DNA from: a virus
DNA length: 25,634 nucleotides
IMG/VR virus record: IMGVR_UViG_3300017772_000106
Span: 1-25,634 of that record
Direction: 5' to 3' (one strand)
Of the stretch, positions 1-14,724 are shown one piece after another (positions within the stretch are counted from its first letter, which is position 1; each line of letters starts with the position of its first letter). Below the pieces are notes generated by a model. That model worked only from the letters and a program-made list of their open reading frames with translations, did not search any database and was not told the DNA's origin. A program made the translations under genes and the position numbers.

Positions 1-1706
1 AAATCAGGGCTACCTTTTTTGCCTTCTGATGCAGCCACTGTATTCATCTTGTATAATACTTGTTGCCACTTGTGACGACAATATACACCCCCCTTGAAGC
101 GAAATAAATCATAGCTATCAGTATCTGTGTGTAAAGGTAATTTTGCTTTTTCAAAATCCATCTTTCTACTTGCTGTGTCAATATCCTCTAGTCTGTAAAC
201 AACGCCTCTTTTAGCCCTGTTCATCATTTCTTTACAAAAAGGTCTTGTGTTGGTTGACGTAGACTTACCTGTGCCTAAAGCATATCTATATCTGACTTTG
301 TAATAACTCTTGTCTAACTGTGAATTTTTTTTAGGGTTATTTTCGATTGGAGTTTTTGATTTAGGATTGTCAGAAAACTCGAAAAAATTGTCAGCCCATT
401 CTTCAACGCTTGAATTGTCTTCGGATACGTCCCGAACGTCAATTAAATTATGCGTTTTAAGGCACATTTCCTCGCCTTTAAGCGACTCTAATGCCCCCGA
501 CAACAATTCGTCTGTCTCAGCGTCAGTTAATGCCTTAGAAGCCATAAAATCAACTTCCGTTGCGAAGTCTCTTGTAGAGCCTCTTTTTACACCTGTTTCC
601 TCTTCACGTTGTTCCTCGTCAACAATGTTCTCTAAGTCCATAAACTCCAGTGGCTCTATGGTTTTAAAGTATAAATTTAAACTAATGTTGTTCACAGCAA
701 ACATTTCGTCTAAAGCCTCAATGATTAATTCCTGATAAGGTTTAATTGTGGTATTTGTAAAGAGTCTTTGTGCTGTAATGATTTCGTCTTCGTTGCTTCC
801 GAGACCACTGTTGCCGTCTCTGAGTCCGATTAACAACGGGCTTGTAACTCTATGTGTAAGCATTATTTTACTGCTACATTCTTCACTGAGATATTCGTAA
901 TGATTCGGAGCGTCTGCCAATGGTATATCCTCGATTGTAGTTTGAGAGTCAGCATTGTTGTTGAACGCAATTATAACCTTTTCCCCGTGACTACCAGTGA
1001 GCTTATTCATTACATCGTTTTTGATAGCAAGCTGTTTTTCTCTATCAGGCACGCCGTTGTTAAAATTCACAACTTTAGTTCCTGAGAAACCGTTAACAGT
1101 GTCGTTTATCAAATAGTCTGCTATTTCACTTTCCAATGTAGCATATGCGTAATTGTAATCTGCGGGGCTATAATAATAATATCCTGTCACATATCTTTTG
1201 ATAACAAATAATTCGTTTTTAGCTCCACTTCCAAACACTGGTATTTTCTTTAATTCGGTTTGTTGTGTAACTTTTGTCCAATCAGGGGCATAATAATAGT
1301 TTTTGATTTCCCCGTCTTCGTTCATTTTTTCCGCTCTGAGAGTTTCTCTCGGGAAATGTGTTATTGAGGATATTTTTTTACCTGTGTAAGATATTTGAAA
1401 GCTAGCCTCTCCAAGCAATTTTAAATCTTGACAAACTTTTCTTAAACAATCAGGATTTATCAAGCCTCTCATCTGAGCATATTGCTCAACTTTTTCTGAC
1501 GAGTCTGTTGCGTCAAGTCCTTTTCCGTATATTTGATTTGTAATACCGTTTATAACAGCCTGATTTGTTGTGCTGTCCATATAAGCGTCTATTAAACATT
1601 GGTAATAATTATTTTCATCTCCAATGGAAACCCAATCTCTGTTTCTTTCCTCTGTTATACTAGGTCTTTCATATTGACCCAACTGTATCATGTGTAAATT
1701 ATCCAT
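1..1706 (-). CDS. Phage portal protein, 3' end cut by the window edge
   Basis: The reading frame is open from an ATG at 1706 to the window edge, about 569 residues with no stop, so the C-terminus is missing. Portals form the dodecameric ring at the head vertex through which DNA enters and to which the tail attaches. The first 350 residues read like a flavobacterial portal: early TTNQAVINGITNQIYGKG, then a clip/stem-like region and LTHRVTSPLLIGLRDG near residue 283. An acidic linker (about 350-465) leads to a separate C-terminal segment (about 468-555) with FCKEM, YRLEDID, YDLFRFKGGVYCRHKW, a Cys/His pattern I associate with extensions of phage head proteins. The start overlaps the upstream gene by 8 bases. 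The portal comes after capsid and major tail genes, far from terminase, which is unusual. The family call is by sequence character, not by a database match. Confidence 0.72.
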   Translation of the reverse strand, partial: MDNLHMIQLGQYERPSITEERNRDWVSIGDENNYYQCLIDAYMDSTTNQAVINGITNQIYGKGLDATDSSEKVEQYAQMRGLINPDCLRKVCQDLKLLGEASFQISYTGKKISSITHFPRETLRAEKMNEDGEIKNYYYAPDWTKVTQQTELKKIPVFGSGAKNELFVIKRYVTGYYYYSPADYNYAYATLESEIADYLINDTVNGFSGTKVVNFNNGVPDREKQLAIKNDVMNKLTGSHGEKVIIAFNNNADSQTTIEDIPLADAPNHYEYLSEECSSKIMLTHRVTSPLLIGLRDGNSGLGSNEDEIITAQRLFTNTTIKPYQELIIEALDEMFAVNNISLNLYFKTIEPLEFMDLENIVDEEQREEETGVKRGSTRDFATEVDFMASKALTDAETDELLSGALESLKGEEMCLKTHNLIDVRDVSEDNSSVEEWADNFFEFSDNPKSKTPIENNPKKNSQLDKSYYKVRYRYALGTGKSTSTNTRPFCKEMMNRAKRGVVYRLEDIDTASRKMDFEKAKLPLHTDTDSYDLFRFKGGVYCRHKWQQVLYKMNTVAASEGKKGSPD

Positions 1707-2052
1707 AGTAAACAAATTTATTATCTCCAGTGCTTTGTTCTATATAAACGCCATTGGAAATATTGTAATCAGACAATGTTTGGTCGGTACAATACATCTT
1801 GTCTTTAAAGATAACATTGTTATCTGTTGTGTTTGTAATTGTAATTAAATAGTAACTATTTTCATCTAACGCTTGTGTTGTAGAATATCTGTAATAATAA
1901 TCTAACTCAGTGAAAGAAGCGTCATTGTCTGTGTAAATTACTTCGTTTTTTCCTTCTGATTTAATCACTACACTGTGTGTTTTTGAGTTATTTATACTTG
2001 TTCTTGGTATAAAGTTAATAAATCTTGTGCCGTTTTTCGTTAATATTTGCAT
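1699..2052 (-). CDS. Small virion-associated protein of unknown function
   Basis: This encodes 117 residues, rich in Asn, Thr and Tyr, with alternating polar and hydrophobic runs (YYLITITNTTDNNVIFKD) that suggest a beta-sandwich. There are no signal peptide, membrane segment or catalytic motifs. It lies between the major tail protein and portal genes and overlaps the portal start by 8 bases, so it is co-translated with virion genes. Small beta-rich proteins at this place in flavobacterial phages are usually minor structural or tail-tube-associated proteins, but I do not recognise a named family. The ATG follows an A/T-rich leader and a likely terminator, so it may depend partly on read-through or its own promoter. 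Structural role is inferred only from position and composition. Confidence 0.7.
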   Translation of the reverse strand: MQILTKNGTRFINFIPRTSINNSKTHSVVIKSEGKNEVIYTDNDASFTELDYYYRYSTTQALDENSYYLITITNTTDNNVIFKDKMYCTDQTLSDYNISNGVYIEQSTGDNKFVYYG

Positions 2053-2065
2053 AATTTATTTAAAA

Positions 2066-2095
2066 AGGGGGTAAGACATAAAAATCCACCCCCCT
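2066..2095 (-). terminator. Probable rho-independent terminator or attenuator
   Basis: On the minus strand a G6 run followed by T and an A-C5 run can pair (AGGGGGGT with ACCCCCT, one G bulged) around a loop of about 15 bases. The 3' arm runs directly into TTTTTAAATAAATT. It lies between the stop of the major tail protein and the next start. A GC-only stem stands out in AT-rich DNA. It may end most messages after the capsid and tail-tube genes and leave a fraction to read into the portal. Confidence 0.5.
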
Positions 2096-2113
2096 ATCCT
2101 GTAAAATTATATT

Positions 2114-2662
2114 TTAGCTATTTGTTCCTACAGTAACAGTCACTGTTGCAGAACTCATGCCCGCAAAAGGGTCAGCAGTTGTACCACCGTTGATAAAATT
2201 AGGCGGTTCGCCTTCTGACGAAGATAATGTCAGTGAATATCCTGACATGTCTCCGAAAGCAGTTCCAGTGGCTACTGTTCCACCAGTAACTTCTGCGCCG
2301 TGCTCTAGTCCTACCAAGAAAAAATTACCATTTCTGTCTTCTACACAAACGTGAGGTCTGCCATAAGCCATTAATTTTAATTCTTTGTGGTCTTCTTTTG
2401 ATAATTTTGGTAAAGTCAATGTTAAAGTTGTCTCAAAAAATGTAGTTCCGTTTTCTCTTGAAGATGTTATAGCACTCTCCAATGAGTTTGTGCCTTTTAA
2501 GTCGTATTGAAATGCTGTAAAAGTCCCTGACATATTAGTTATTTCATCAGCGGTTTTTGTTACAGTTCCTAAATCTCCAAAATCAACAAACCACGCTTTC
2601 ACAAGCCCACCAACCACGTCTTTACAAGGTGTTTTTCTACCTATTGTTAAATCACAAGCCAT
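2114..2662 (-). CDS. Major tail (tube) protein-like structural protein
   Basis: From the ATG at 2662 this gives 182 residues starting MACDLTIGRKTPCKDVVGG. A longer reading starts upstream (MLPYLKTNN...), but it would run through a hairpin, and the ATG at 2662 sits behind the typical A-rich leader AAAAACAAACAAT. The opening (Cys-Asp, then PCKD.VGG) and the Gly/Thr/Ser-rich C-terminus are what I associate with tail-tube-type proteins of flavobacterial phages. The middle (TTFFETTLTLTLPKL) looks like paired beta strands. It directly follows the major capsid gene in transcription order. It is probably the repeated subunit through which DNA passes, but a second capsid or decoration protein cannot be excluded. 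No residue pattern proves the role. Confidence 0.6.
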   Translation of the reverse strand: MACDLTIGRKTPCKDVVGGLVKAWFVDFGDLGTVTKTADEITNMSGTFTAFQYDLKGTNSLESAITSSRENGTTFFETTLTLTLPKLSKEDHKELKLMAYGRPHVCVEDRNGNFFLVGLEHGAEVTGGTVATGTAFGDMSGYSLTLSSSEGEPPNFINGGTTADPFAGMSSATVTVTVGTNS

Positions 2663-2680
2663 ATTGTTTGTTTTTAAATA

Positions 2681-2700
2681 AGGGAGCATTTCAGCTCCCT
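2681..2700 (-). other. Perfect hairpin between capsid and tail protein genes
   Basis: A perfect 7-base inverted repeat, AGGGAGC and GCTCCCT with a 6-base loop, lies in the gap after the major capsid stop and before the next ATG. On the minus strand it is followed by TATTTAAAAAC, too A-broken for a strong terminator. It could be a weak attenuator or a 3' hairpin that protects capsid mRNA. Assignment is by structure only. Confidence 0.45.
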
Positions 2701-2716
2701 ATTATTATTTTATTTA

Positions 2717-3643
2717 TTATGCGTGATACAGAACAATCTCTGTTCCAATGCCGTATTGTACAGCACTTGTGTATCTCATAATACATCTGACGTTCTGTGA
2801 ACCGTCTAAATCACTCATATCAAGCACTTTCACTTCGTTCATGTCGTTTAACAGACCTGTTCCAAAATATAAGTTTGATTTTTGCGCAGCCATTGCTGTG
2901 TCGTCATTAAGACCGTTCGCAACGAATAATTTAACACCATCAAAAGATAATGCTTGGTCTCCGTACCACATGTGTGATTCAGTTTTATAACCGTTGTTCG
3001 ATGCAGCAAACCCACCTAAAGCCCTAACATATGCTCTAGCAATGTTTTGAGAGATGTATATGTGTAAATCTTCTTTGTTATACAAAGCAGACGGAATTGC
3101 GTCAACAATAGAGCCTAATTTTGAAATAACATTTGCACTGGTAACTGCAGCGTGTGATGCTACGTCTATAACATTGGAATCAGCTAAAGCTAAAGTCACA
3201 AGACCATCAAACTCACCTGCTGTGGAGTTTGCGCCTTCCCATATGTTTTTCTCAGTTTTTTCAGCTACTAATCCCGCAACGTGTCCAATAATAAAATCAG
3301 AAAATTTTGGTGGTAGTTTATCATAAGCTGAATATCCCATCTGTACAGCTTCCCAATCAGATACAAAATCTTGCTTGCAAAATTGTAAATTTACTTGGAA
3401 CTCTTCTGGTTGAATTATTCTTTCAGTTAAAGTCACTGTTGCAGTAGCGTCAAAATCACAAGAAGCGTTTTTAATTACATTTGCGTCAGTGGCTACGTTT
3501 TTCATTGTAGACTTATATTTGATATTCGGCATTACTTCCACGCCTCCTTTATCAATAGTGTTCGCACTTAACAGTGCTGCAGAGATATATTTCCCCGCAA
3601 ACTCACCTGCATATGTGCTAGTTATGTTTGTTGTTGTTGCCAT
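2717..3643 (-). CDS. Major capsid protein, HK97-like
   Basis: This encodes 308 residues beginning MATTTNITSTYAGEFAGKYI. The content fits an HK97-fold shell protein: an N-terminal arm without membrane or signal features, a long central helix-rich part (DFIIGHVAGLVAEKTEKNIWEG), a loop region with GLVTLALADSNVIDV, and a C-terminal beta segment ending EIVLYHA. It follows a scaffold-like acidic gene by 10 bases, with the prohead protease two genes earlier, so the order is protease, scaffold, capsid. The ATG is preceded by AATAAATAAACA. The first residues lack the long delta domain of HK97, consistent with the separate scaffold gene. The call rests on genomic position, length and sequence character; I am fairly sure. 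Confidence 0.8.
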   Translation of the reverse strand: MATTTNITSTYAGEFAGKYISAALLSANTIDKGGVEVMPNIKYKSTMKNVATDANVIKNASCDFDATATVTLTERIIQPEEFQVNLQFCKQDFVSDWEAVQMGYSAYDKLPPKFSDFIIGHVAGLVAEKTEKNIWEGANSTAGEFDGLVTLALADSNVIDVASHAAVTSANVISKLGSIVDAIPSALYNKEDLHIYISQNIARAYVRALGGFAASNNGYKTESHMWYGDQALSFDGVKLFVANGLNDDTAMAAQKSNLYFGTGLLNDMNEVKVLDMSDLDGSQNVRCIMRYTSAVQYGIGTEIVLYHA

Positions 3644-3653
3644 TGTTTATTTA

Positions 3654-4247
3654 TTAATTATTTTGGTAAATTTTATCAAAAACTCTGTCTCTTGTTGTTT
3701 TTACTCTGTTATTTGATATTTTAAAGTTAAATTTGGTTTTATTTTCCTTTTCAGGGTTATGTTTAATTGGCTCAGTGGCTACGGCAGACAATTCCTCTTT
3801 TACAGTGGTATCTTCTTTCATTTCCTCTTTAACCTCTTCAACGTCTCCACCCATTTTTTCCTCAATCATAGCTTTAATTTCATCTACAGCCTGAGTAAAT
3901 TCTTGTTTAGTGACATATTCCATTTCAACTTCTTCTTTTGGCTCTTCCACTGATTCTTCAAGTTCTTCTTCTTTGACTTCTTCTTCAGCTTCGACCTCCT
4001 TTATTTCATCAATCATGCCTTCTTCTTTCACAATAAGAATTTTTCCATCTTCTAGCTTATATTCGCCCAGTGGCAAGGCAACTTCCTTGTCTTCGGTTTT
4101 TATAAACACAGATTTTCCTGCTTCAAATGATTCGGCTGTAATAACAGTGCCGTTTTCTAATTTGTATTCAGCAAGTTTTATGTTCTCATCAGAAAGTTCA
4201 ACGCCAACAATATTTGAAATTTTGTTTAGTATCTCTGTTGCTTTCAT
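3654..4247 (-). CDS. Scaffold-like acidic coiled-coil head assembly protein
   Basis: This encodes 197 residues. Residues about 1-75 contain a repeated beta-like motif, EYKLENGTVI and EYKLEDGKILI, as in small barrel modules. Residues 80-155 are almost all Glu, Lys and Val (EVEAEEEVKEEELEESVEEP) and should form a charged coiled coil. The last 40 residues are basic and Asn-rich. An acidic helical middle plus a basic tail directly before the major capsid gene is typical of a scaffold that guides shell assembly and is then removed, here perhaps by the adjacent protease. No catalytic motif is seen. Another possibility is a head accessory protein, but position makes scaffold most likely. A 10-base gap separates it from the capsid gene. 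Confidence 0.65.
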   Translation of the reverse strand: MKATEILNKISNIVGVELSDENIKLAEYKLENGTVITAESFEAGKSVFIKTEDKEVALPLGEYKLEDGKILIVKEEGMIDEIKEVEAEEEVKEEELEESVEEPKEEVEMEYVTKQEFTQAVDEIKAMIEEKMGGDVEEVKEEMKEDTTVKEELSAVATEPIKHNPEKENKTKFNFKISNNRVKTTRDRVFDKIYQNN

Positions 4248-4308
4248 ATTTACGATTTATACAACCACAACGTAAGAATACCACAAGTGTTATATTTTTT
4301 TTTAATAT

Positions 4309-4461
4309 TTATTGTGGAGAGCCTGTAATATTGCCTATTCCTTGAGCTTGTAGACTTCCGTCACAGCATTTAACACTGTATTTTGTTCCGTTAGGACATA
4401 AACAGCCTCTTTTCGTGTTTGTCGGGCTTGTTCTGCTAGGTGTTTTGAATGATTTTTTCAT
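4309..4461 (-). CDS. 50-residue cysteine-rich small protein
   Basis: A small gene in the gap between protease and scaffold, starting at ATG 4461 and ending TAA at 4309. The product opens MKKSFKTPSRTSPTNTKRG, then has CLCPNGTKYSVKCC, and ends with a GSLQAQGIGN-type tail. Four cysteines in a 14-residue span (CxC and CC) suggest a metal site or disulfide knot. The opening Lys/Arg/Thr-rich tail is unstructured. I recall similar short ORFs beside the head genes of flavobacterial phages and prophages but know no function. An A-rich leader (AAAAAACAATAAATT) supports the start. It might be a minor virion component or regulator. The conserved-looking C-terminus argues against a chance frame. Confidence 0.6.
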   Translation of the reverse strand: MKKSFKTPSRTSPTNTKRGCLCPNGTKYSVKCCDGSLQAQGIGNITGSPQ

Positions 4462-4476
4462 AATTTATTGTTTTTT

Positions 4477-4509
4477 AAGTGTACTTTAAGTGGACTTTAA
4501 GTGGACTTT
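4477..4509. repeat. Three tandem 11-base repeats after the protease gene
   Basis: The unit AAGTGGACTTT is present twice and AAGTGTACTTT once, head to tail, with a partial fourth copy (AAG). Each unit is nearly palindromic (AAGT..ACTT). The array overlaps the stop codon of the protease gene and fills the gap before the small cysteine-rich gene. It could bind a regulator or simply reflect slippage. Confidence 0.7.
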
Positions 4510-5713
4510 AAGCAATAGGCACACAATTTGGCACTTTCTTACCGTTTTTCATCTTAAAACCAACCATTTCATATCCTTCCCAACAAGGCTCTTTGAGTTC
4601 GTGCTGTTCGCAAGGCATATACCAAGTCTTGTCTTCAAGCTCATGTGTATGAAAACCATCACAACCCAAGTCCTGTGCTATTTTTTCTGCTTTTTCTTGT
4701 GTATTATAAGCTAATCTATCATTGATAACAGCCATATTATCATCAATAATCATATTTTCAAGGTCTATTTCACCCAATTCCTTGAGTTTACTTGCTGACC
4801 AACGCAGTCCTGCGAGACCTCCCCACAGTAAAAAGCTAATAGTTCCACAGGCTTTGCTGTCTCCTTCGTCATAATTAACCTCAGCTCGTGATAAATAACT
4901 GTACATTCTCTTTAAAGTTTCCAATGAAATCGCACCTTTTTGAGCGAGAGTCGATGCTCTTACCTTCCCGACCTGTGTTGCGCACTTGTTATTTACCTTT
5001 TCGTTGAGTTCAATCCCCCTTTTAGCGTTGTTCGATACTGCTTGAGGATAGTCTTTATATGATTCTAGAGCAATTTTGGCGTCATTTACTGTATTAGTAG
5101 GTGTTTTGAGGGCAGTTCGCACCTTAGAAAGCATAAAATTTGCTTCCGATTCCTCTATTATTGCTAAATCAGTGGAAAAATCAGGACTAACATTGAGTTT
5201 TGCCTTGTCTGCGAAGTAACCTTCAATGGAAAATCCTTTTACTTTGCCATTTTTTACATAATCAGTCCATATTTCTTCGTTTTCGACCTTCATTGAAATC
5301 ATCCACGTTCCTTTTGGCACTTCTAGGCCATATTTTACTGATTTATCCATTTTAGTGTCTTCTACAATCCAAGATTCAACAACGGTCAAGCCTTTTATGT
5401 TTAATTCGTGTTCTAACGTGGCATTATTTTGATTTCCTTGTATAAAAAATAATTCTGAGGCACGTCTTACAGTATTTTCAGAGAAATACACATAAAACAT
5501 ATCATCGTCTTTTTTTCTGAATATAGGTTTGTTCGGTATCAATGCTGCTCCCATTAAAAGCCTTTTTTCTCCATTGATTTGTGCTAATTGTATCTCTTGA
5601 TTTTTCAATGCTATAAAGTCCGACTCTATTGCGGGACTTTCTACAATGCTAACAGCGTCTATGCCACTTAACTCTTGTGTTTCTTCATCTAATATTAATT
5701 CAATTATCTCCAT
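4508..5713 (-). CDS. Prohead maturation protease (XkdF-like) with C-terminal extension
   Basis: This encodes 401 residues. Residues 1-170 match the XkdF-like phage serine protease pattern: ELSGIDAVSIVESPAIE at the start, PIFR near 63, an ATLEHE stretch with a candidate catalytic His (about 102), VVESWIVED, and KGFSIEGYF with a candidate catalytic Ser (about 162). This enzyme trims scaffold and shell proteins in the prohead. Residues about 225-310 form a helical module (TLAQKGAISLETLKRMYSY, then LLWGGLAGLRW) often attached to such proteases. The end, with HELKEPCWEGYEMVGFK and VPNCVP, is a short Cys-containing tail also seen on phage head proteins. Upstream is the tape measure gene, 11 bases away; downstream are the cysteine peptide, scaffold and capsid. 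Catalytic residues are my reading of the pattern. Confidence 0.78.
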   Translation of the reverse strand: MEIIELILDEETQELSGIDAVSIVESPAIESDFIALKNQEIQLAQINGEKRLLMGAALIPNKPIFRKKDDDMFYVYFSENTVRRASELFFIQGNQNNATLEHELNIKGLTVVESWIVEDTKMDKSVKYGLEVPKGTWMISMKVENEEIWTDYVKNGKVKGFSIEGYFADKAKLNVSPDFSTDLAIIEESEANFMLSKVRTALKTPTNTVNDAKIALESYKDYPQAVSNNAKRGIELNEKVNNKCATQVGKVRASTLAQKGAISLETLKRMYSYLSRAEVNYDEGDSKACGTISFLLWGGLAGLRWSASKLKELGEIDLENMIIDDNMAVINDRLAYNTQEKAEKIAQDLGCDGFHTHELEDKTWYMPCEQHELKEPCWEGYEMVGFKMKNGKKVPNCVPIA

Positions 5714-5724
5714 TGTTGTTTATT

Positions 5725-7641
5725 TTAAAAAGTTGCTTGTTGTATTGTGTTATTTTCTAATTGTTGTGCTGTAGTAACGTCTCCTGCTACCACATACGCT
5801 TGAACAGGTGCGTTTGCTTGACTATCTAATGCTTGTGCTATCTGATTTGTCCCTGATTGACCTACTACATTGAAAGACGGGCTTGACGGTTGTGTAGGAA
5901 CAGGGGGTGTTGTAGTAGAGGTTGCCCCTCCACCGCCTCCTGACGGTTGAAATTTCTGCATACCGATAGCGACCATCTGTGCTGCTCCTGCGACACCCAT
6001 TGCTATCATATTTGCTGTTCTTAAGGCTTGAATAGGTGTTATATCAGTAGTTTCTGCTGCGGCTTTCATAATTGCCTGTGCTGTATTTATCCCTACTTGT
6101 GCCATACCAATGGCTTTTTGTATATTAAAAGCCTTTTTTGCTTGTTTTTCGCCTTTTTTAGCAAAAGCGTCAGTGAGAACTGATAAAGAACTCAACGCAG
6201 ATTGTGCTAAAGCAAATTTTGCGTCTTGTAAGGCTTGTTCGTCAGCTCTTTTTGACTCTGCTATCTCTTTAGACCTTGTTACCTCTTGTTGGTCAAATCC
6301 TTGTTTAGCGTCAGCATACTCTTGTTCAGCGTCTACTCTTGCTTGTGTACCTTCTTTGTATAAAGCTATTTTATTTTGTAGTCTTGTGGTCTCTAGTTCA
6401 GCTTCTTGTTGGTCAACTAGCCTTAGAGCCTCCAACCTTTCCGTTGCTCCAACTATTTGTTCAGCGTTAAACCTGTCTGAGTCAATACTTCTTTGATTTT
6501 CAGCCTCTTTTTCAGAGTTTATCATATCAAGGTTTTCTTTTCTCAGTGCTGTTTCGTTCGTTTTAAATTCGCTCAGTTTACCATTGACAGATTCTAACAC
6601 AGCTTTGTATTCGTTCTGAGCTTCAATTAAAGCAACTTGTGCTTCCACATTATCCTCTGCTTTGTCTAATTCATTCTGTGCTAAGTCTATTGCTATCTGT
6701 GCGTTTGCTAATAATAAGTTTTTTTGCTTCTCATATATTCCAACAATTTCATCATTCGCCTCTATTCTAGACTGTAAATCAAGCTCTGTATTATCTCTGA
6801 TTTGTCTTTGCATTTCGGCTTGTTGCTCGTATTCAGCAATGATACCCGCATTTCTTGCTGCTGCAATTTTAGCGGTTTTCTCAAGTTCCACATTAGCTTT
6901 TGCCGTTTCTAAGATTGCTTTTACATTGATTTTCTTTACTTTATCAATTACTTGTGAGCCAATGTCCGCAGCTTCTGTGATAGCTTCACTAAAATTATTT
7001 ACTATATCAGAGCCTGCTTGAACAACGTCTTTTCCAATGTCAACAAAATTTTGTCCAATCTGGTCTAGTTCTGCGTTGAGTTCAGCAATTCTTTCAGGGT
7101 CATCATTTCCAAACCAAGATTTTTCCCAAGCAAGTTGTGCTCCTATAATACCAGCTTTAATTGCCTCAAAACCTAGTTTCATTGGAGTAATAGCTATTGT
7201 TAACATACCGCTCATAACCTTTCCTAAAGCGTCAAAGTTTTCTGTGCTACTAGCCACATTTTCGTAGACCTCTTTCAAAGCGTTTGACAGTGCTGAAAAT
7301 ACTAGCTCAAGAGCTTCAAAACGAACAGCAAAAGCGTCTACCACTGGTTGACTACCTTTTAACATATCAACAAGTTTACCAACAGCCAAACTTATTATTC
7401 CAAAAATTCCTGCTGCTTTTGTAAGACCTCCGAAACCTTTAGCAAGTCCTTTAACACCGCCACCTAATTTCTTGAAAATACCTTTTTTGGCAGGAGCTTC
7501 TACAGTTTTGCCTAATTCTTCAGCGTCTTTTGTCGTGCTTTGTAACTGTGTACCAAGATTTTCTATTGCTTTTACAATATCTTCAATGCCTTTGTCAGCA
7601 CCTTTAGTTTCTACATCAAGTTCAAGTACCTTTTTTTCCAT
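5725..7641 (-). CDS. Tail tape measure protein
   Basis: This encodes 638 residues, the longest coiled-coil protein in the window. The start (KVLELDVETKGADKGIEDI) is typical of tape measure N-termini. A Gly/Ala/Ile-rich hydrophobic stretch (residues about 55-95, GGLTKAAGIFGIISLAVGKL) could cross or contact a membrane. Residues about 235-460 are a long Ala/Glu/Gln coiled coil, followed by an Ala-rich helical part and a Gly/Pro/Thr linker (GGGGGATSTTTPPVPTQPSS) before the last 70 residues. Such proteins set tail length and help DNA enter the cell. At 638 residues a tail of roughly 95 nm would follow from the usual 0.15 nm per residue. It starts inside the end of the small upstream gene. No peptidase domain is visible. 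Confidence 0.85.
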   Translation of the reverse strand: MEKKVLELDVETKGADKGIEDIVKAIENLGTQLQSTTKDAEELGKTVEAPAKKGIFKKLGGGVKGLAKGFGGLTKAAGIFGIISLAVGKLVDMLKGSQPVVDAFAVRFEALELVFSALSNALKEVYENVASSTENFDALGKVMSGMLTIAITPMKLGFEAIKAGIIGAQLAWEKSWFGNDDPERIAELNAELDQIGQNFVDIGKDVVQAGSDIVNNFSEAITEAADIGSQVIDKVKKINVKAILETAKANVELEKTAKIAAARNAGIIAEYEQQAEMQRQIRDNTELDLQSRIEANDEIVGIYEKQKNLLLANAQIAIDLAQNELDKAEDNVEAQVALIEAQNEYKAVLESVNGKLSEFKTNETALRKENLDMINSEKEAENQRSIDSDRFNAEQIVGATERLEALRLVDQQEAELETTRLQNKIALYKEGTQARVDAEQEYADAKQGFDQQEVTRSKEIAESKRADEQALQDAKFALAQSALSSLSVLTDAFAKKGEKQAKKAFNIQKAIGMAQVGINTAQAIMKAAAETTDITPIQALRTANMIAMGVAGAAQMVAIGMQKFQPSGGGGGATSTTTPPVPTQPSSPSFNVVGQSGTNQIAQALDSQANAPVQAYVVAGDVTTAQQLENNTIQQATF

Positions 7642-7780
7642 ATCTTATTTTTAAATAGTTGATTGACTCCTTCACGTTTCTTGGCAATTTATTTTGTCCT
7701 AGAGCAATGTTTATATATTCTCCATATACTTTATTGGCTTGACAAAATTTAAGTGTTTCTATACAAAATTTTATATTCAT
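7622..7780 (-). CDS. 52-residue small protein upstream of the tape measure
   Basis: ATG at 7780 follows the stop of the upstream gene by two bases, and the TGA at 7622 lies 20 bases inside the tape measure gene. This tight coupling and the good A/T-rich leader make it a likely gene although it is short. The product begins MNIKFCIETLKFCQANKVYG and continues as a basic, mainly helical peptide with KLPRNVKESINYLKIRYGKK. Two Cys lie near the start. There is no membrane segment. I do not recognise it. By place it could be a tail assembly helper. Confidence 0.55.
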   Translation of the reverse strand: MNIKFCIETLKFCQANKVYGEYINIALGQNKLPRNVKESINYLKIRYGKKGT

Positions 7781-7782
7781 AA

Positions 7783-8145
7783 TTAAGTTGTTGTAAATGT
7801 TCCCCCTGAAGGACTAAATGTTGGCACTGGGTCAGATACGTTTTGACAAAACGCAGTTCCGCTATAAGTCATTGAGATAGTTTCAGAGGTAACGTCATAA
7901 ACTGGCTCTGATAATAACTCCATTGAAGTTCTTCCTGACTGTAACTTTGTTGACATTTTATTTATTGTGTAAGCCGTAGTTCCTAACACAATTAAATCGT
8001 TTAATTTTAATTTAGTTAATATTTTCACTGGTAATACATCTTCTATTTTTAACAACCTTGCTTTTTTGCTAAATACTCTTGTGATATAATTTTGAAAATA
8101 TTTTTGAAATAAGCTGTTATTGTTTCCTCCATAATCCGTTCTCAA
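7783..8145 (-). CDS. C-terminal part of an interrupted baseplate-like protein
   Basis: This frame has no ATG. The first usable start is TTG at 8145, but the frame is open back to the stop of the upstream gene at 8182 and is in the same phase as that gene. The residues before the TTG (NLNFGSEINEV) and after it (LFQKYFQNYITRVF, then LLKIEDVLPVKILTKLKLNDLIVLG, TTAYTINKMST) read as one continuous domain of a tail/baseplate protein. I therefore think that this is the last 130 residues of the 8182-10158 gene, cut off by a stop. The chain may be made by read-through or be inactive, or the sequence may carry two small indels. It could also be a true separate gene starting at TTG. Confidence 0.6.
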   Translation of the reverse strand: MRTDYGGNNNSLFQKYFQNYITRVFSKKARLLKIEDVLPVKILTKLKLNDLIVLGTTAYTINKMSTKLQSGRTSMELLSEPVYDVTSETISMTYSGTAFCQNVSDPVPTFSPSGGTFTTT

Positions 8146-8181
8146 AACTTCATTTATTTCAGAGCCGAAATTTAAATTGTG

Positions 8182-10158
8182 TTAAGGGGGCGTTGTTGCT
8201 GTTCCTAGCTCGTTGTAATTATCAGGTCTGTGATAACTTGTTAAAGTGTGTCTTACTCCTGAAGGAACTTCTGCGCCTAACACATCGGAAGTACTTGTGC
8301 TGTCTGTAAAATTTATTGTGTTTGTTGTTCCAATACTTAATTGATTAATAAACATTAACAGTGGTGCGCCAATACTAGGTTTTAAGTCTTGATTTAAAAA
8401 AGTTCCAGTGACTAATGACGTTCTTTCTCCAGTGTCTCTTTTATCTAATCCTTCAAACATCATGTGTTCAAAAGGAGATTTTAATTTAAAAGTTTCAGTG
8501 GAGTCCGTTTCAACCGTGTGTGTAGCTTTTCCAAAGGCTTTGTTGTTTGTTTGTTCGTATTGTTGTGCTAATATACTTTTTGACGGTGGATACTCAAGGT
8601 CTATTTCGCCAAAGGGTAAAACCTCGTCAACCTCGTGTTGGTCTACAACAACATATTTTGATATATCTACTTGATTGCCTAATGCATAATAATCATCTAA
8701 AGTTTGAACAATTATTTCCTCAGTTAATTCGTCAACATAGGCTATAAGATTAAATTGCTTGAATAAACCACTTAAAAAGTCCTTAACTTTCATTTTTGGA
8801 ATTTGGTCTGTTATTGTGACTAAAGCGTCTTGTGGTGTTATAGTAGTTGAAACGCTTGTGAAAGTTGCTGTGTAATCATAATTGACTGTCGTTCCTGACG
8901 TGTTTATTTCATAGCCGTAAATCCTTTCAATTTTTATTGTGGAACGAAATTGTATTGCGTCTTGTGAGATTAATCTTGGAACAACGGCTCTTTGTGTAAA
9001 AAACGAGCCTCCAAAAGTATTTTCATAATCATCTACAAAATCACTTGTTCCATATCCTATTTCATACACAACACTAGAAGTGCCTGATAGATTATTTTCA
9101 GCTGAAATTATTCTCCAATTTAAAGCGTCTAAAATTTGTAAATCATATCTTGCTGTTGATGTTGCACTTGTAGGAGTTATAGTCACTGTTATTCTAAAAC
9201 TATTACCACTGTAAGTTACATTAGAATAGTTAGTCATTTTTAAAAACCATATTCCTGTTCCAGTGGAGAAATATCCAAAACCTAATGAGGGGTTTGTTAG
9301 CTCTGTAACGTCTCCTGACCCTGTGTATGTTTGATTTACATTTCCAACCCAAGTCCCCGCAAGAGGCATTTTGCCTTTTGCTCTATGTAACCACATATAA
9401 AGATTATCAAACACATTAGACTGAAAGAAATTACCTGTTTTAAAAATTAACCCATATTTTTCTTCAATGGCTTTTATGATTAAAGATACTTTTATTGCAG
9501 GCTTTAAATCCTCTGCTAAAACACCACGCTTAGAATTATCTTGTGATGTGATAGCTATGTTCATTCCGTTGTCATAATCCCCGTTCTGATTATACAGATA
9601 TGCTTGAGAATGAGCAAGCAAAGGATATACAACAGCTTTGTTGTAGGTAATTCCGTCAACTGTAAAGTTCTGACCAGACGTAAGAGAGTTTCTGACAGAC
9701 GTATTGGTTGCTGTATGGTTGAATTCGTTTAACCACGTTAAATCACTTATTTCATCCTGTTTTAATAATTCTTTTAATGTGCTTGTGTTTCCAAAAAAAG
9801 TAACCTTATAAATAAAAGGTTTTTGATTTTTCATAGTAACACTGTTGAGTTTTATTTTGCCCTCTCTGAATGATAAATGATTTAAAAATATTCTTGCGTT
9901 ACAATACACATTACTGTCAAACTCGTTGACATCAGGATTATACCAACTTTTAAATATTTTGTTGTTCGTCTTTGACGCAGGTAAATTAAAACTCCTGCTG
10001 TAGTCAGTGTATAATTGGTCAAGGTTTCTAAGGTCTTTTATGACTTGAGTAACAGTGATTAATTCTTCCTCCATTAAATCCGTGTTTACAAACTCAGTGG
10101 TGTTCTCAGAAAGGTCTACTCCTATTTGTGGCTGTATGTATAAAGATATTTTTTGCAT
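8182..10158 (-). CDS. Large baseplate or distal-tail-like structural protein
   Basis: This encodes 658 residues. The N-terminal 150 residues (LYIQPQIGVDLSENTTEFV, then VIKDLRNLDQLYTDYSRSFN and FREGKIKLNSV) resemble the large tail-tip proteins of flavobacterial siphophages. The middle is a Thr/Ser/Asn-rich beta region (about 265-420) suggestive of a carbohydrate-binding or jelly-roll insertion. The part around 450-520 (MKVKDFLSGLFKQFNLIAY, DELTEEIIVQTLDDYY) resembles a hub-like fold. It ends TTPP followed by TAA, after which the same frame continues in the next entry. It overlaps the upstream gene as TAATG. The role in host contact is inferred from position and composition. Confidence 0.65.
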   Translation of the reverse strand: MQKISLYIQPQIGVDLSENTTEFVNTDLMEEELITVTQVIKDLRNLDQLYTDYSRSFNLPASKTNNKIFKSWYNPDVNEFDSNVYCNARIFLNHLSFREGKIKLNSVTMKNQKPFIYKVTFFGNTSTLKELLKQDEISDLTWLNEFNHTATNTSVRNSLTSGQNFTVDGITYNKAVVYPLLAHSQAYLYNQNGDYDNGMNIAITSQDNSKRGVLAEDLKPAIKVSLIIKAIEEKYGLIFKTGNFFQSNVFDNLYMWLHRAKGKMPLAGTWVGNVNQTYTGSGDVTELTNPSLGFGYFSTGTGIWFLKMTNYSNVTYSGNSFRITVTITPTSATSTARYDLQILDALNWRIISAENNLSGTSSVVYEIGYGTSDFVDDYENTFGGSFFTQRAVVPRLISQDAIQFRSTIKIERIYGYEINTSGTTVNYDYTATFTSVSTTITPQDALVTITDQIPKMKVKDFLSGLFKQFNLIAYVDELTEEIIVQTLDDYYALGNQVDISKYVVVDQHEVDEVLPFGEIDLEYPPSKSILAQQYEQTNNKAFGKATHTVETDSTETFKLKSPFEHMMFEGLDKRDTGERTSLVTGTFLNQDLKPSIGAPLLMFINQLSIGTTNTINFTDSTSTSDVLGAEVPSGVRHTLTSYHRPDNYNELGTATTPP

Positions 10159-11303
10159 TATCTTATTGTGTTCACGTATTTAGCCGAATGTAAAAATTCC
10201 ATTGTATAATTTATCATTCTGTCGTTTAATCCTGTTTTGCTAGTAAATGAAGAATCAATTAAATTCACTGGAGTTATTTCTCCCGTTGTTATATCTGTTA
10301 ACCATACGTATTCACTGACCATTAATTCTTTAAAAGACTCGTTCATGTCTTCTGAGACATATCCTGTGTTTAGTTGAGTTTTCTCTTGCGCTTGAGAATT
10401 AAAATTTTGTTTACTGTGTTCGTAAATATTATAAACATTGTAGTTGTATGAAGTTGTACATATGCCACTTTGATTTAATCCTTTCACTGTTTGCCTAGCC
10501 TCGAAAACGCTTCTATCAAAACTTTCTCTTGTGGCGGTCATCGACTCTGTTGATTTTTTAAAGAAAAACAGCTCTTGTAAAGCTCCCCATCTATTTAAAA
10601 AAGTAATTTTCTTCACTGGGTATTTACACTCTTCAATGCTTTCTAAATTTAATGTTCTGTATAAAGTTCCAGTGCCGTTTGTTCCTGAATAAAATCTCAT
10701 TTGATAAGGTATACTTGCTGTGTTATAACCTACGTATTTTATTTTTTGATTATTATTTCCGTTGTCGGTAGCATTAAAAGTAGCGTCACTGGTATTTCTA
10801 AACGATGTTTTAACAGAGCCTACTTTTTCGTTATTTATCGGAACATACACCGCTTGTCCTTGAAGATATTGTACTGTGTTAGAGGTAATCATTGCGTCAG
10901 GCTCCGTCACGTAATTAACCCCTTCACTGAAAGTGTTAAATCCTTCTTGACATAAATACGTGGCAGAAACTGAGCTACCAATTTGACCTCCACTGGCGTT
11001 TCTAGCAAATATGTTCGTGTTTATCCAAAGACTTTGTGTTAAAGCTGATGTGTTATAATTACCATTGTATTTTTGTTCTAAATGATTATGTATAAGCTCT
11101 GCTATTTCAAATGTAACAGAATGTTCCTCTGGTAATGGTTTTTTAGTTAATTGATAAGTTTCGTATATGCTTGTACACTGTTCTAATGCTCCTGTAGTTC
11201 CAGTGTAAACGCTAATCCTTAAATCAAAATATGCTAATGATAGATTTGTTTCTTGTTGTGTTCTTATAAAAAACGGGCTTCTTGTTCTAATTATTGTGCT
11301 CAT
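10158..11303 (-). CDS. Tail structural protein, unknown family
   Basis: This encodes 381 residues starting MSTIIRTRSPFFIRTQQET. Beta-rich segments (TYQLTKKPLPEEHSVTFEIA, YQMRFYSGTNGTGTLYRTL) and a Trp/Phe-containing turn (FLNRWGALQELFFF) point to a structural sandwich protein. The last third (YVWLTDITTGEITPVNLIDS) is typical of tail-tip-associated proteins of Bacteroidota phages. The gene overlaps the upstream gp10-like gene by ATGA and the downstream baseplate gene by TAATG, so translation is coupled. No enzymatic motif, signal or membrane segment is seen. It is likely part of the distal tail, but I cannot name it. Confidence 0.6.
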   Translation of the reverse strand: MSTIIRTRSPFFIRTQQETNLSLAYFDLRISVYTGTTGALEQCTSIYETYQLTKKPLPEEHSVTFEIAELIHNHLEQKYNGNYNTSALTQSLWINTNIFARNASGGQIGSSVSATYLCQEGFNTFSEGVNYVTEPDAMITSNTVQYLQGQAVYVPINNEKVGSVKTSFRNTSDATFNATDNGNNNQKIKYVGYNTASIPYQMRFYSGTNGTGTLYRTLNLESIEECKYPVKKITFLNRWGALQELFFFKKSTESMTATRESFDRSVFEARQTVKGLNQSGICTTSYNYNVYNIYEHSKQNFNSQAQEKTQLNTGYVSEDMNESFKELMVSEYVWLTDITTGEITPVNLIDSSFTSKTGLNDRMINYTMEFLHSAKYVNTIR

Positions 11304-11830
11304 TCAATTCCAATTTTATCTTTGTAATATCCGTCAAGCATTGAATCCCCAAAAAGGTCTAATGCTCGTTCAAATGGTTTTGTAAAAAAAAGGCTTGCTC
11401 TAATGCCTTTATTTCCTACACTCCTTGCTATTATGTAGTTTAATCCTTTACGCTTGAGAAAACGTCCCTTTTCATCTCTCGGTGCTATTCCTTTACGCAC
11501 TCCCCACTTGTCAAAAGCACTTGAGGGGGGCATACGGCTAAATTTGTAATGCTCTTTAGCTTTTGTTTGAGCTTGCGCCGTCTGTGGATATGTGCTTTTC
11601 ATACCTCTAACCCCTTTGTCAATTAGCTCTCCATAATACAATGAGTTGAAAGTAACTTTTTGACCTACAATTTTATAACCAATGCTATCATATAATTTAC
11701 CACTGGTGCTTATAGGTTTTTTTCTTTTACCAAATCCGCTCTTTTTTAAGTTCTGTTTAGCTTCTTGTGTAACCCATTTAGCATATTTTTTTAATGCTCT
11801 CTCAAAATATCCTCCTGCTTTAACCTTCAT
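11300..11830 (-). CDS. Tail completion / neck protein, HK97 gp10-like
   Basis: This encodes 176 strongly basic residues. The N-terminal helix (YFERALKKYAKWVTQEAKQN) followed by SGKLYDSIGYKIVGQKVTF and YYGELIDKGVRGM fits gp10-type neck proteins, in which a helix is followed by a strand pair and a Tyr/Gly turn. The last part (FFTKPFERALDLFGDSMLD) is the usual closing helix. Such proteins link the head connector to the tail tube. It sits directly after the tail-terminator-like gene (TAATG overlap) and before the tail tip genes (ATGA overlap), as expected. The Lys/Arg-rich insertion (SRMPPSSAFDKWGVRKG) is longer than in many homologues. Confidence 0.62.
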   Translation of the reverse strand: MKVKAGGYFERALKKYAKWVTQEAKQNLKKSGFGKRKKPISTSGKLYDSIGYKIVGQKVTFNSLYYGELIDKGVRGMKSTYPQTAQAQTKAKEHYKFSRMPPSSAFDKWGVRKGIAPRDEKGRFLKRKGLNYIIARSVGNKGIRASLFFTKPFERALDLFGDSMLDGYYKDKIGIE

Positions 11831-12285
11831 TAACAGTGAGTCATTTCATCCTTAGTACCAATGTCAAATGTAACAGCCCAACCTCCAAGTTTGTTGTCAA
11901 ATCTTTCCGTGAAAGGCTCGCAAGTAGATACGTTCAACAGCTCAAATTTATCTCTGTATAAATCTGCTTTCTGTAATACTCTGTTAACTCTAGTTGCTAA
12001 AGCAAGCTGTGTGTTTAACACATCATGTTCGTTGTCGTTTCCTCTGAAATAATCTTTAGTGGTTTGATTTGAAATATCTATTAAATCCATGTAGAACACA
12101 GTTATATTAAAACTTACATAATTGTTGTTTATTGTAGCGGTGTTAATCATAATATGAGCCAGTGGAAATAATGATTGTTTTTTTAGGTCTATTTCGGCAA
12201 TGTCTCCAAATGTAACCTCGTGATTAAAAGGCTCAGCATTGATTGCTGATTTAATATTATCTATTACAGTGTAAAATGAGTTCAT
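11830..12285 (-). CDS. Tail terminator-like protein
   Basis: This encodes 151 residues. It begins MNSFYTVIDNIKSAINAEPF, has the small protein pattern FPLAHIMINTATINNNYVSF and ITVFYMDLIDISN in the centre, and ends WAVTFDIGTKDEMTHC. An N-terminal helix followed by alternating strands and a helix around ATRVNRVLQKADLY is the general shape of tail terminators, which cap the tail tube at the head side. The position next to the gp10-like gene supports this. It overlaps its neighbours by ATGA and TAATG. Similarity is structural in character only; a head-tail connector is the other possibility. Confidence 0.5.
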   Translation of the reverse strand: MNSFYTVIDNIKSAINAEPFNHEVTFGDIAEIDLKKQSLFPLAHIMINTATINNNYVSFNITVFYMDLIDISNQTTKDYFRGNDNEHDVLNTQLALATRVNRVLQKADLYRDKFELLNVSTCEPFTERFDNKLGGWAVTFDIGTKDEMTHC

Positions 12286-12548
12286 ACGGGCTTTATGTAT
12301 ATTGGTGTATTTGTTCCTAAATCTTGTTCAATGAATTCGTCAAGGTCATCAATAGCTCTGTCAAAGTCTAAGCCGTCACGCCTAATCAATAAATCAAGAC
12401 AAACCCAATAATCATATATGGCACAAACAGGTTTAATTGAAGAAAGACCTATAAAAGCCTCCTCAAAGCCGTCTACAAGGATTAAGTGTTTATTTTGTTC
12501 CAACAAATTATTGTCGTCTAATATTTCAAATATTTCATCTTTGGTCAT
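12282..12548 (-). CDS. Small acidic protein of unknown function
   Basis: This encodes 88 residues, rich in Asp, Glu, Leu and Ile: DEIFEILDDNNLLEQNKHL, GFEEAFIGLSSIKPVCAIYD, then a helix with LDFDRAIDDLDEFI and a C-terminus TPIYIKPV. The pattern with a Phe/Ile-Gly turn, a P.CAIYD.. strand and an acidic helix resembles a short family that I have seen in several unrelated phages and bacteria, without known function. Its ATG overlaps the stop of the -1 frame extension of the tail chaperone (ATGA), which independently supports that extension as translated. No membrane segment. Confidence 0.65.
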   Translation of the reverse strand: MTKDEIFEILDDNNLLEQNKHLILVDGFEEAFIGLSSIKPVCAIYDYWVCLDLLIRRDGLDFDRAIDDLDEFIEQDLGTNTPIYIKPV

Positions 12549-12799
12549 TTCTTAATTTTTAACATAGATTTTTCAAGCTCGTATTTATCCTTTTCAAAAG
12601 CCAAATAAGTTAAGCAACTGTGTAATTTAATTTTAGTAGTTTCTTCAAACCTTGATAAGTCTCCTTTTGATAGTCCATATAAAGATTGATACCAAGACCA
12701 TTTTTCACTGAAGTTAGTAGATGCTGTGGGAAGTCCACCGCCTCCTGTGTCTTCAAATAGTTCAGGATAACTGTTTTTAACTCGTTGCTTAAATTGTAA
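12545..12799 (-). CDS. -1 frame extension of the tail assembly chaperone
   Basis: Directly after a T9 run, the frame one base back from the upstream gene is open for 84 codons. It reads LQFKQRVKNSYPELFEDTGG, a Gly-rich turn, then SEKWSWYQSLYGLSKGDLSR and SCLTYLAFEKDKYELEKSML before TGA at 12545. This looks like real protein, with aromatic residues in regular places and a closing charged helix, while the 0-frame reading of the same DNA (62 residues) does not. The TGA overlaps the next ATG as ATGA, matching the rest of the operon. A 0-frame product plus -1 extension is the well-known layout of siphophage tail assembly chaperones. Joined to the upstream 161 residues, the full product would be 245 residues. 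Confidence 0.7.
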   Translation of the reverse strand, partial: LQFKQRVKNSYPELFEDTGGGGLPTASTNFSEKWSWYQSLYGLSKGDLSRFEETTKIKLHSCLTYLAFEKDKYELEKSMLKIKK

Positions 12800-13281
12800 A
12801 AAAAAACCAGTGAAGAAAAAACGGTGTTCATGTCTATTTTTTTCATATCATATTTTTCGCTCGTTTCGTAGTCTTCAATCTCGTATAATTGTTTTACACT
12901 GTTAGTCACTGGTCTGTATAATACTCCAAGACCTTTATGAATATTGCTCCAATCAGAAAGGTAGTTATCAAGGTCAACATATTCTCCAAATGTGATGTCG
13001 TCAAGTTTCGGTATAAATCCAAATTCAACATTGTTAATTTTTATTCGGTCTTTAAATTTAGTATCACTGTCAAATAACTCTACAATGGAATTACATATGC
13101 TTTCCACGTCATGTGTTTTTATTTTGTTTACCGCTATCAGTGGAATATTACAAAACACCTCTATCATCTTTTGTTGAAGAAAATACACATCATCGTTTCC
13201 CTCTGATATTTTAATCCAATTCTGATACTGTTGTAATGTTATTTCTGTAAGGCTTGTTGGTATGTTTACCGATACTTTCAT
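12610..13281 (-). CDS. Tail assembly chaperone-like protein, 0-frame product
   Basis: The 0-frame product is 223 residues. Residues 1-161 are convincing protein: VNIPTSLTEITLQQYQNW, VEFGFIPKLDDITFGEYVDL, DWSNIHKGLGVLYRPV. These motifs fit a group of Bacteroidota phage proteins at the tail assembly chaperone position, which coat the tape measure during tail building. After residue 161 (codon pair TTT TTT at the T9 run) the remaining 62 residues look like an accidental reading of coding DNA in the wrong frame. The stop TAA is at 12610. The gene is the first of the structural operon and follows the promoter candidate at 13319-13326. Normal phages make both a short and a frameshifted form; whether that holds here, or whether one T is missing, cannot be settled from sequence alone. 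Confidence 0.7.
   Translation of the reverse strand: MKVSVNIPTSLTEITLQQYQNWIKISEGNDDVYFLQQKMIEVFCNIPLIAVNKIKTHDVESICNSIVELFDSDTKFKDRIKINNVEFGFIPKLDDITFGEYVDLDNYLSDWSNIHKGLGVLYRPVTNSVKQLYEIEDYETSEKYDMKKIDMNTVFSSLVFFYNLSNELKTVILNYLKTQEAVDFPQHLLTSVKNGLGINLYMDYQKETYQGLKKLLKLNYTVA
12798..12806 (-). promoter_or_regulatory. T9 slippery run, probable -1 frameshift site
   Basis: On the minus strand the codons GTT TTT TTT TAC contain nine T in a row. Slipping back one base keeps Phe in the decoding site and moves ribosomes into the open -1 frame. If the run were ten T, the two frames would simply be one gene, so an indel or sequencing error gives the same picture. I did not identify a clear downstream stimulatory stem. 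Confidence 0.6.
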
Positions 13282-13318
13282 TGCTGTATATACGTTTTAA
13301 ATGATTAACTGTTATACA

Positions 13319-13326
13319 CAAATATA
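13319..13326 (-). promoter_or_regulatory. Promoter candidate of the structural operon (TATATTTG)
   Basis: TATATTTG matches the Bacteroidota -7 consensus TAnnTTTG, with its last base 37 bases upstream of the chaperone ATG, giving a leader of about 30 bases. It lies in the only long non-coding gap (13282-13521), after a terminator. I see no good TTTG-type -33 box at the expected distance, so the promoter may rely on an activator or an alternative sigma factor such as the one encoded at 18949-19458. Confidence 0.5.
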
Positions 13327-13390
13327 ATCTTTTCTTGTCTTGTCTTATCTATATGCTTGAGCGAGAAACGACCGACCGCTTGATGTGTAT

Positions 13391-13420
13391 AAAAAAAGCC
13401 ACCCTTTTTACAGAGTGGCT
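13391..13420 (-). terminator. Rho-independent terminator downstream of terL
   Basis: On the minus strand AGCCACTCT pairs with AGGGTGGCT (9 base pairs, one G-U) around a loop of GTAAAA, followed by a run of T. It is about 100 bases after the terL stop and before the promoter candidate. It separates the replication/modification/packaging transcript from the structural operon. The rest of the 240-base gap holds no gene that I believe. Confidence 0.75.
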
Positions 13421-13521
13421 CAGCGGATAGCATAGAATGAAAAACGAATCTAGACAAATAGATTACATTGGTAAATATATAAAAAAAACAATACACAGTA
13501 CTACACATTAAATAATTATTT

Positions 13522-14724
13522 TTAATAAATGTGATATTCCCCCTGATTAGGGTTTTGTAATTGATAGCTCACAGCGTATCTTAAAGCATCAATGGCGTGA
13601 TTATATTTATCCACTGGCGTTTGTGACTTCTTTTCTAACCAACAATAATTGTTTAGCTCCTTGACTAAGTCTTCACTGTCAGGACTTATTACAAGGTCGT
13701 AATCTTGAAGCAAGCTAATTCCGTACGTAACACTGCCTTGACCTTTTATGGCAGACACCATATTACAATCTCTGCTTAATTCGGTAATCAATCGAGGCTC
13801 TGCGCTATCTCCGACAATTAAATGTCTATTAGCATATTGTTGATTAAGGTGGTTTATTTGGCTTGTAGTGAGTTTTGTTTTATAGTAACACAGGCTAACA
13901 TAGATGACTTTATTTTGTTTGTCTACGCTTGTCTTAACAAGTGTTGTTGGGTCGTTTGAAAATCCGTAATCTTGACCGAACACTGGAGTTGATACCTCTG
14001 TAAATTCTCCAATAGTCCAATTATCAAATATCACTCCCTCAGATTTTTCTAACCAAGAGCCTTCAATGGTATGTTTATATCTTTCAGGTCGTCTTCGCTT
14101 CATCTGTTCTATCTGTGATATGTAACTCTCAGAGAGGTTATCAATGTTATCAAGATATGTGGAATGACAATAACTCACGTTTCCCTTTATTGTGTTGCTC
14201 CCTGCTTTGATTCCTGCTCCTTCAAAAAACCTCTTGTAAATCCAATGTTCTTTAGTAGTTGGATTCATAATCATAAACACTCTGTTGCGAACATCCTTTT
14301 GTCTCACTGATAAATCTATTTTATCAAATATATCCTCATCAGTCATTTCTTCGGCTTCGTCTATTATCCAAGTGGTAATTCCCTGTAATGATTTAAGGTT
14401 TGCTGTTTGGTCTCCTGATGAAGTCTTTATACCTCTGAACAATATTTTACTACCATTGTTTAAATTTACAATCTCATCTTTTGTTGTGTAATACATATCT
14501 GTAAGACCTAGCAATTCAATTTTCTCTTTGAACTCAGGTATAATCGAAACTGACGCAGACCTTAATGTGTAACGAGTAAACAACACACTATGTGTAACAC
14601 CTTTCTCTAAGGTTAGATACAATGCTAACATTGATACAGCAAAAGACTTTCCTGAGCCTCTACCTCCAGTGAACAAGAAGTATCTTGACGGATTGTTTAA
14701 TATTAGAAATTTGTTATTCAGCAT
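13522..14724 (-). CDS. terL: Terminase large subunit
   Basis: This encodes 400 residues. The ATPase domain carries Walker A GGRGSGKS (about 20-27), a Walker B with catalytic Glu in IIDEAEEM (120-127), and the coupling region MIMNPTT (about 151-157). The C-terminal RNase-H-like nuclease has three expected acidic positions: D252 in GQDYGF, D306 in VGDSAEP and D379 in HAIDALRYA. Length and motifs fit a PBSX-type phage terminase, complete and probably active. It cuts concatemeric DNA and pumps it into the prohead through the portal. It overlaps terS by 11 bases. A terminator follows. The portal gene, normally adjacent, lies about 12 kb away. Confidence 0.95.
   Translation of the reverse strand: MLNNKFLILNNPSRYFLFTGGRGSGKSFAVSMLALYLTLEKGVTHSVLFTRYTLRSASVSIIPEFKEKIELLGLTDMYYTTKDEIVNLNNGSKILFRGIKTSSGDQTANLKSLQGITTWIIDEAEEMTDEDIFDKIDLSVRQKDVRNRVFMIMNPTTKEHWIYKRFFEGAGIKAGSNTIKGNVSYCHSTYLDNIDNLSESYISQIEQMKRRRPERYKHTIEGSWLEKSEGVIFDNWTIGEFTEVSTPVFGQDYGFSNDPTTLVKTSVDKQNKVIYVSLCYYKTKLTTSQINHLNQQYANRHLIVGDSAEPRLITELSRDCNMVSAIKGQGSVTYGISLLQDYDLVISPDSEDLVKELNNYCWLEKKSQTPVDKYNHAIDALRYAVSYQLQNPNQGEYHIY

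Follow-up and report, generated by a model that had tools for sequence, protein, structure and literature searches.

A gene next to the terminase gene of a marine phage probably yields two products, owing to programmed slippage at a run of nine T residues (T9). The pattern of conservation around the run favors programmed slippage of RNA polymerase over slippage of the ribosome. The gene lies in a stretch of viral DNA of 25,634 nucleotides (IMG/VR record IMGVR_UViG_3300017772_000106), which was analyzed as a whole and is referred to here as the window.

Sequence Features of the Frameshift Gene

The features of the window that bear on the gene are as follows.

12799..13281, minus strand: frameshift gene, shared N-terminal domain; 161 frame 0 codons, ending in GTT TTT TTT
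12798..12806, minus strand: putative T9 slippage run, read in codons as G TT TTT TTT T; T9 or T10 in all 312 distinct relatives
12545..12805, minus strand: -1 frame extension; 84 residues past Phe-Phe, then TGA
12610..12798, minus strand: 0-frame tail; 62 codons and a stop, dual-coding with the -1 frame
12610..13281, minus strand: complete 0-frame ORF, corresponding to a 223-aa short product
13522..14724, minus strand: terminase large subunit gene (Terminase_3, E = 3e-34), upstream of the frameshift gene
12282..12548, minus strand: next gene, 88 aa (phrog_13182), with an ATG that overlaps the -1 frame TGA
11300..11830, minus strand: candidate HK97-gp10-like neck or tail-completion gene (PF04883, E = 0.023, under the curated cut-off; phrog_29822), further downstream
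5725..7641, minus strand: candidate tape measure protein gene (phrog_3336, E = 9.5e-8), ~5 kb from the frameshift gene

Frame 0 starts at the ATG at 13281 and is convincing through codon 161, where the run of exactly nine T occupies positions 12806-12798 in the minus-strand sense. Past the run, frame 0 reaches a stop at 12612-12610. Frame -1 continues to the TGA at 12547-12545, which overlaps the ATG at 12548 of the downstream gene, and the two frames together encode a fusion of 245 aa. The initial annotation had already given this layout, with 161 convincing residues, 84 residues in frame -1 and the TGA/ATG overlap, and all of these values were reproduced, with the gene on the minus strand. 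In the window, the -1 frame is closed 14 codons before the run begins, and no ATG, GTG or TTG usable as a start was found for the -1 segment, which leaves a shift as the only way into it.

The N-terminal domain matches phrog_32199 (E = 1.6e-14), and its AlphaFold model has a pLDDT of 91.6. For the -1 extension the pLDDT is 70.8, and the model of this C-terminal domain was too weak for a fold search. An alignment of relatives (A4) shows that the extension carries a conserved F..KWGWY...L...K domain. This alignment and a companion one (A3) contain only the window and the loci from the searches for related loci.

Conservation of the T Run in Related Phages

When the -1 segment alone was used as a query, 80 IMG/VR loci were found, and profile searches with either half yielded many more. 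The two halves were located independently in each locus by profile HMMs. Both are present in 405 of 407 loci, the other two stopping at the edge of the stretch, and 312 of the sequences are distinct. The second half is in frame -1 relative to the first at the junction in every one of the 312. Measured at the junction as the longest stretch of T, the run has nine residues in 298 loci and ten in 14; all 14 of the latter keep the -1 relation, and a run of eight or fewer does not occur in any of the 312. Clustering at 70% identity gave 111 clusters, 99 with T9 and 12 with T10. No close relative among the 312 loci was found to be fused in frame; the comparison of run lengths that had been proposed for related phages returned T9 and T10 but no continuous gene. 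The T9 arrangement is more than chance. Elsewhere, just 41 other runs of at least nine T are present in 1.23 Mb of DNA flanking the related loci.

In every one of the 312 loci the third (+1) frame meets a stop within ~21 nt past the run, usually in a conserved TTTA[AG], and a one-base deletion would therefore always end the protein immediately.

Three of the related loci come from Bacteroidetes metagenome bins, two of these being Winogradskyella, and the isolated phages that match the frameshift gene are Nonlabens phages P12024L and P12024S. The phage of the window infects Flavobacteria-type marine bacteria, and the T9 gene probably belongs to a widespread group of flavobacterial tailed phages. 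The two Nonlabens phages carry the same gene (genes 40/41 in P12024L and 38/39 in P12024S) at the same place after the terminase, with T9 and the -1 relation. They differ from the window in sequence, with ~25-32% identity, and in that the gene is annotated as two separate hypothetical proteins. In P12024L (positions 6001-6695 of locus L083), genes 40 and 41 are the two halves, and the second has been annotated from an internal start.

Single-ORF Relatives of the Fusion Protein

A fold search with the model of the N-terminal domain led to Flavobacterium phage 6H. In its sister phages FPSV-F7 and 23T, as well as in laban6-1, Ingeline, Leef and a Microcystis phage, the protein is a single ORF of 259-301 aa. 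These single-ORF proteins of Flavobacterium (FPSV-F7, 23T, laban6-1), Cellulophaga (Ingeline), Polaribacter (Leef) and Microcystis phages make up phrog_25418. The family is homologous to the T9 fusion across both halves but is encoded in one frame, without T9. The fused T9 family was compared with the single-ORF proteins by hhalign on a shallow alignment of five sequences; the match extends through both halves (245 columns), with a probability of 99.1 and E = 1.6e-17. Because distant relatives encode the entire protein as a single ORF, the fusion is a genuine product, and on this homology the 245-aa protein of the window is a real one. The proposal that T9 joins two frames into one protein is borne out by both the remote single ORFs and the constant -1 relation.

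When the Ingeline protein was used as a scan query, it matched only phage Ingeline itself. In that phage the single-ORF gene comes after portal and adaptor genes, and two small genes lie between it and the tape measure gene. In Flavobacterium phage 6H (locus L248, 10352-10927), the protein is annotated with 191 aa, as opposed to 293 aa in the near-identical FPSV-F7 and 23T. The 6H gene is shortened by an indel near the end of the N-terminal domain, which is either an error or real.

Dual Coding of the 0-Frame Tail

The continuation of frame 0 past the run had been described as random in the initial annotation, a view that does not hold for the family. The 0-frame tail is open for at least 46 codons in 96% of 48 lineages, whereas synonymous shuffles of the -1 frame predict 14% (27% in the highest single shuffle). 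In four successive blocks, the frequencies of frame 0 stop codons are 0.000, 0.001, 0.004 and 0.039, compared with expected values of 0.070, 0.022, 0.006 and 0.116. The third frame, as a control, shows no depletion in the first block (0.190 versus 0.150 expected).

Residue identity in frame 0 is also above expectation across the first 28 residues, with z = 13 in the first block and 17 in the second. Comparable control regions of the N-terminal domain have z values of -1.2 to 1.6, climbing to 5 just before the site. Identity in the third frame is raised past T9 as well, as conserved silent sites require, and for this reason the frame-specific depletion of stops is a stronger argument than the frame 0 identity. 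The tail follows a motif of roughly [YW]NLxxELxxxxLNYLxxQxEV. By these sequence measures the region past T9 is dual-coding, the 0-frame tail being conserved beyond what frame -1 explains. Since the tail is both open and conserved, both the short and the long product are selected.

Possible Transcriptional or Ribosomal Slippage

The nine-T run consists of a T TTT TTT heptamer with one additional T on either side. Most sites have NTT before the heptamer and TA, TG or TC after it. In four clusters the 5' codon lacks the middle T (ACT, GAT, GCT, AGT), and all four have an extra T at the 3' end, compared with 7 of 101 NTT clusters (Fisher p about 7e-5, worked by hand with the clusters taken as independent). 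The two clusters with a C after TTT TTT TTT both have TTT as the 5' codon. As intermediates of such compensation, T10 is seen and T8 never is. Only about six independent lineages put the compensation to the test. Coding explains part of the outer T residues, through the middle base of Val, Ile or Leu on one side and Leu TTR on the other. TTC at Phe-161 with CTR at Leu-162, which would be silent in both frames and leave T TTT TTC, has no occurrences, although other columns with a conserved Phe or Leu often use TTC or CTN. The absence of T TTT TTC alone is not decisive, since UUU may be the better ribosomal slip codon.

A downstream hairpin and a Shine-Dalgarno-like element were considered as stimulators. 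No Shine-Dalgarno-like motif was found around the site in 49 lineages, nor was any excess of pseudoknot-free RNA structure in the same lineages, and RNAalifold showed no structure on a diverse alignment. The floor of nine on the run length, maintained by compensation outside the heptamer, and the failure to find a stimulator of either kind favor transcriptional slippage.

In vivo, runs of nine A or T residues make bacterial RNA polymerase slip efficiently, and the hybrid of this enzyme is 9-10 bp long (PMC5009743); from a length of nine, A/T runs become avoided in the coding regions of many bacteria (PMC1088944). The frameshift gene has the properties expected of such a site, namely an A/T homopolymer at least about nine residues long where the frames change, an extension in the shifted frame that is conserved by selection, and a run length selected beyond the ribosomal heptamer. 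Faithful mRNA (U9) would give the 223-aa short protein, composed of the N-terminal domain and the 0-frame tail, of which at least the first ~28 residues are selected. If RNA polymerase inserts an additional U, or leaves out two, ordinary translation would enter frame -1 and give the 245-aa long protein, which carries the conserved KWGWY C-terminal domain. With one U removed, translation would terminate no more than about 21 nt past the run.

The alternative that deserves most weight is a programmed -1 ribosomal frameshift at the T TTT TTT within the run, with a minority of ribosomes making the long form on faithful mRNA. The heptamer fits X XXY YYZ in frame and is kept by every relative, the -1 direction and the two-product layout match the classical case (PMC5009743), and ribosomal slippage may be influenced by how long the U run is or by the use of UUU as the codon. 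However, tandem -1 re-pairing does not involve the first T, and still, where this T is lost, an extra T at the opposite end of the run makes up for it; seven T would suffice, yet neither T7 nor T8 is present in the 312 loci. The silent T TTT TTC is never used, and neither a Shine-Dalgarno-like element nor a structured region downstream was found in the 49 lineages. We therefore regard ribosomal slippage as possible but unlikely. Of the -1 shift as it had been annotated, the frame relation stands, and its ribosomal mechanism is made doubtful by the compensation outside the heptamer and by the failure to find a stimulator.

A run such as T9 can also slip when the DNA is replicated. The run itself would then be T9 in some phages of a population and T10 in others, which would toggle the long form. 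Indels would alter the frame relation, though, which they do in none of the 312 loci, and the T10 runs hold the -1 relation, so that phase variation of this kind is very improbable. Still less credible is that sequencing or assembly lost one T from a single ORF with T10, as the initial annotation had cautioned. Homopolymers are error-prone and remote relatives do have a single ORF, but the -1 relation recurs in 312 distinct loci, among them the isolated Nonlabens phages and even the T10 loci, and the 0-frame tail is under selection. The relatives thus exclude a lost base in the window. Equally hard to credit is separate translation of the -1 ORF by internal initiation or coupling, without a fusion. 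The annotation of P12024L as two genes would agree with it; the closed -1 frame of the window, which lacks a usable start, and the relatives that encode both halves as one protein speak against it.

Slippage by RNA polymerase, the preferred reading, resembles the cases of Thermus thermophilus dnaX, Shigella spa13/mxiE and IS elements (PMC5009743, PMC1088944). Like the frameshift gene, these have a nine-residue run whose length is kept in homologues, the extension read in the shifted frame is conserved, and at least two products are made. The present case differs from them in that it is a gene of a phage morphogenesis region and has a T run. In the literature searched, outside of which lay most subscription papers and all preprints, no report of transcriptional slippage in a tail chaperone gene was found, and the frameshift gene bears no slippage annotation in PHROG and phage records.

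Possible Role in Virion Assembly

Ribosomal -1 frameshifting of tail chaperone genes is a textbook case. By analogy with it, the slippage would yield two versions of a probable virion-assembly protein, and a tail assembly chaperone is a plausible identity. The two proteins would probably act like lambda gpG and gpGT, with a common domain and a second binding domain in the long form, and the short and long forms would probably enter tail or neck assembly in a fixed proportion.

A close parallel is offered by phage lambda G/GT and, more widely, by the frameshift conserved in tail assembly chaperone genes of dsDNA phages (Levin 1993; Xu 2004; reviewed in PMC5009743). Both in lambda and here, one gene gives two products through a -1 shift late in the first ORF, the long form adds a small second domain, and the gene lies in a phage morphogenesis region. 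Unlike in lambda, the site here is a pure T9 or T10 with a length floor of nine, stimulators were not found, and the 0-frame tail is long (about 50-65 codons) and under selection. The gene also follows the terminase instead of lying directly upstream of the tape measure gene, from which ~5 kb and several genes separate it, and no sequence or fold match to known chaperones above noise was found for it.

On the minus strand, the order is terminase, frameshift gene, 88-aa gene, 151-aa gene, gp10-like gene, two larger genes, tape measure, protease, scaffold and capsid candidates, and portal. The window from 1 to 14724 thus shows an unusual gene order for a siphophage, with terminase and neck/tail genes first, tape measure, protease and capsid next, and the portal last.

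No chaperone match above noise was obtained in Pfam, NCBIfam and PDB searches, and a PDB fold search with the N-terminal domain model gave no match. Phage_TAC_7 was matched by one of 79 members (E = 0.033), and one BFVD entry named tail assembly chaperone was matched at E = 0.15. PHROGs place the frameshift gene in unknown families, apart from a weak match to phrog_166, "tail protein". This weak match raised the question of homology to the T4 baseplate hub proteins gp26, gp51 and gp28, which found no support: the T4 proteins are in families (phrog_150/1140) other than those matched here, and hhalign against single T4 gp26, gp51 and gp28 sequences gave nothing. The place beside the terminase and the single-ORF relatives are unlike the classical chaperone pattern. 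Of the siphophage tail chaperone named in the initial annotation, the two-product -1 layout with a common N-terminal domain is retained; a match to a curated family or solved fold, and adjacency to the tape measure gene, are not.

A more general proposal is that flavobacterial tailed phages set the ratio of two assembly proteins by RNA polymerase slippage on a T run of 9-10 nt, which is kept as a fixed ruler by compensating mutation, with a region of ~50-65 codons read and selected in two frames, and that this replaces the classical ribosomal frameshift of phage tail genes. We give this combined proposal slightly better than even credence. If true, a large and diverse group of phages obtains the two-product layout by polymerase slippage, and selection keeps the outcome and not the mechanism. 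From the sequences of more than 100 natural lineages, one could then read how short a run can be and still slip in Flavobacteria-type hosts. Slippage at T9 would also explain why annotators split or truncate the frameshift gene.

Other Sites in the Window

An in-frame TAA at 8184-8182 (minus strand) splits a long ORF that runs from 10158 down to 7783. Both parts match phrog_38559, and the TAA is a natural split, a site of read-through or an assembly error. A run of nine A is present at 18973-18965 (minus strand), near the end of the gene at 19458-18949 and beside the TTG start of the next ORF at 18962. It is possibly another slippage site.
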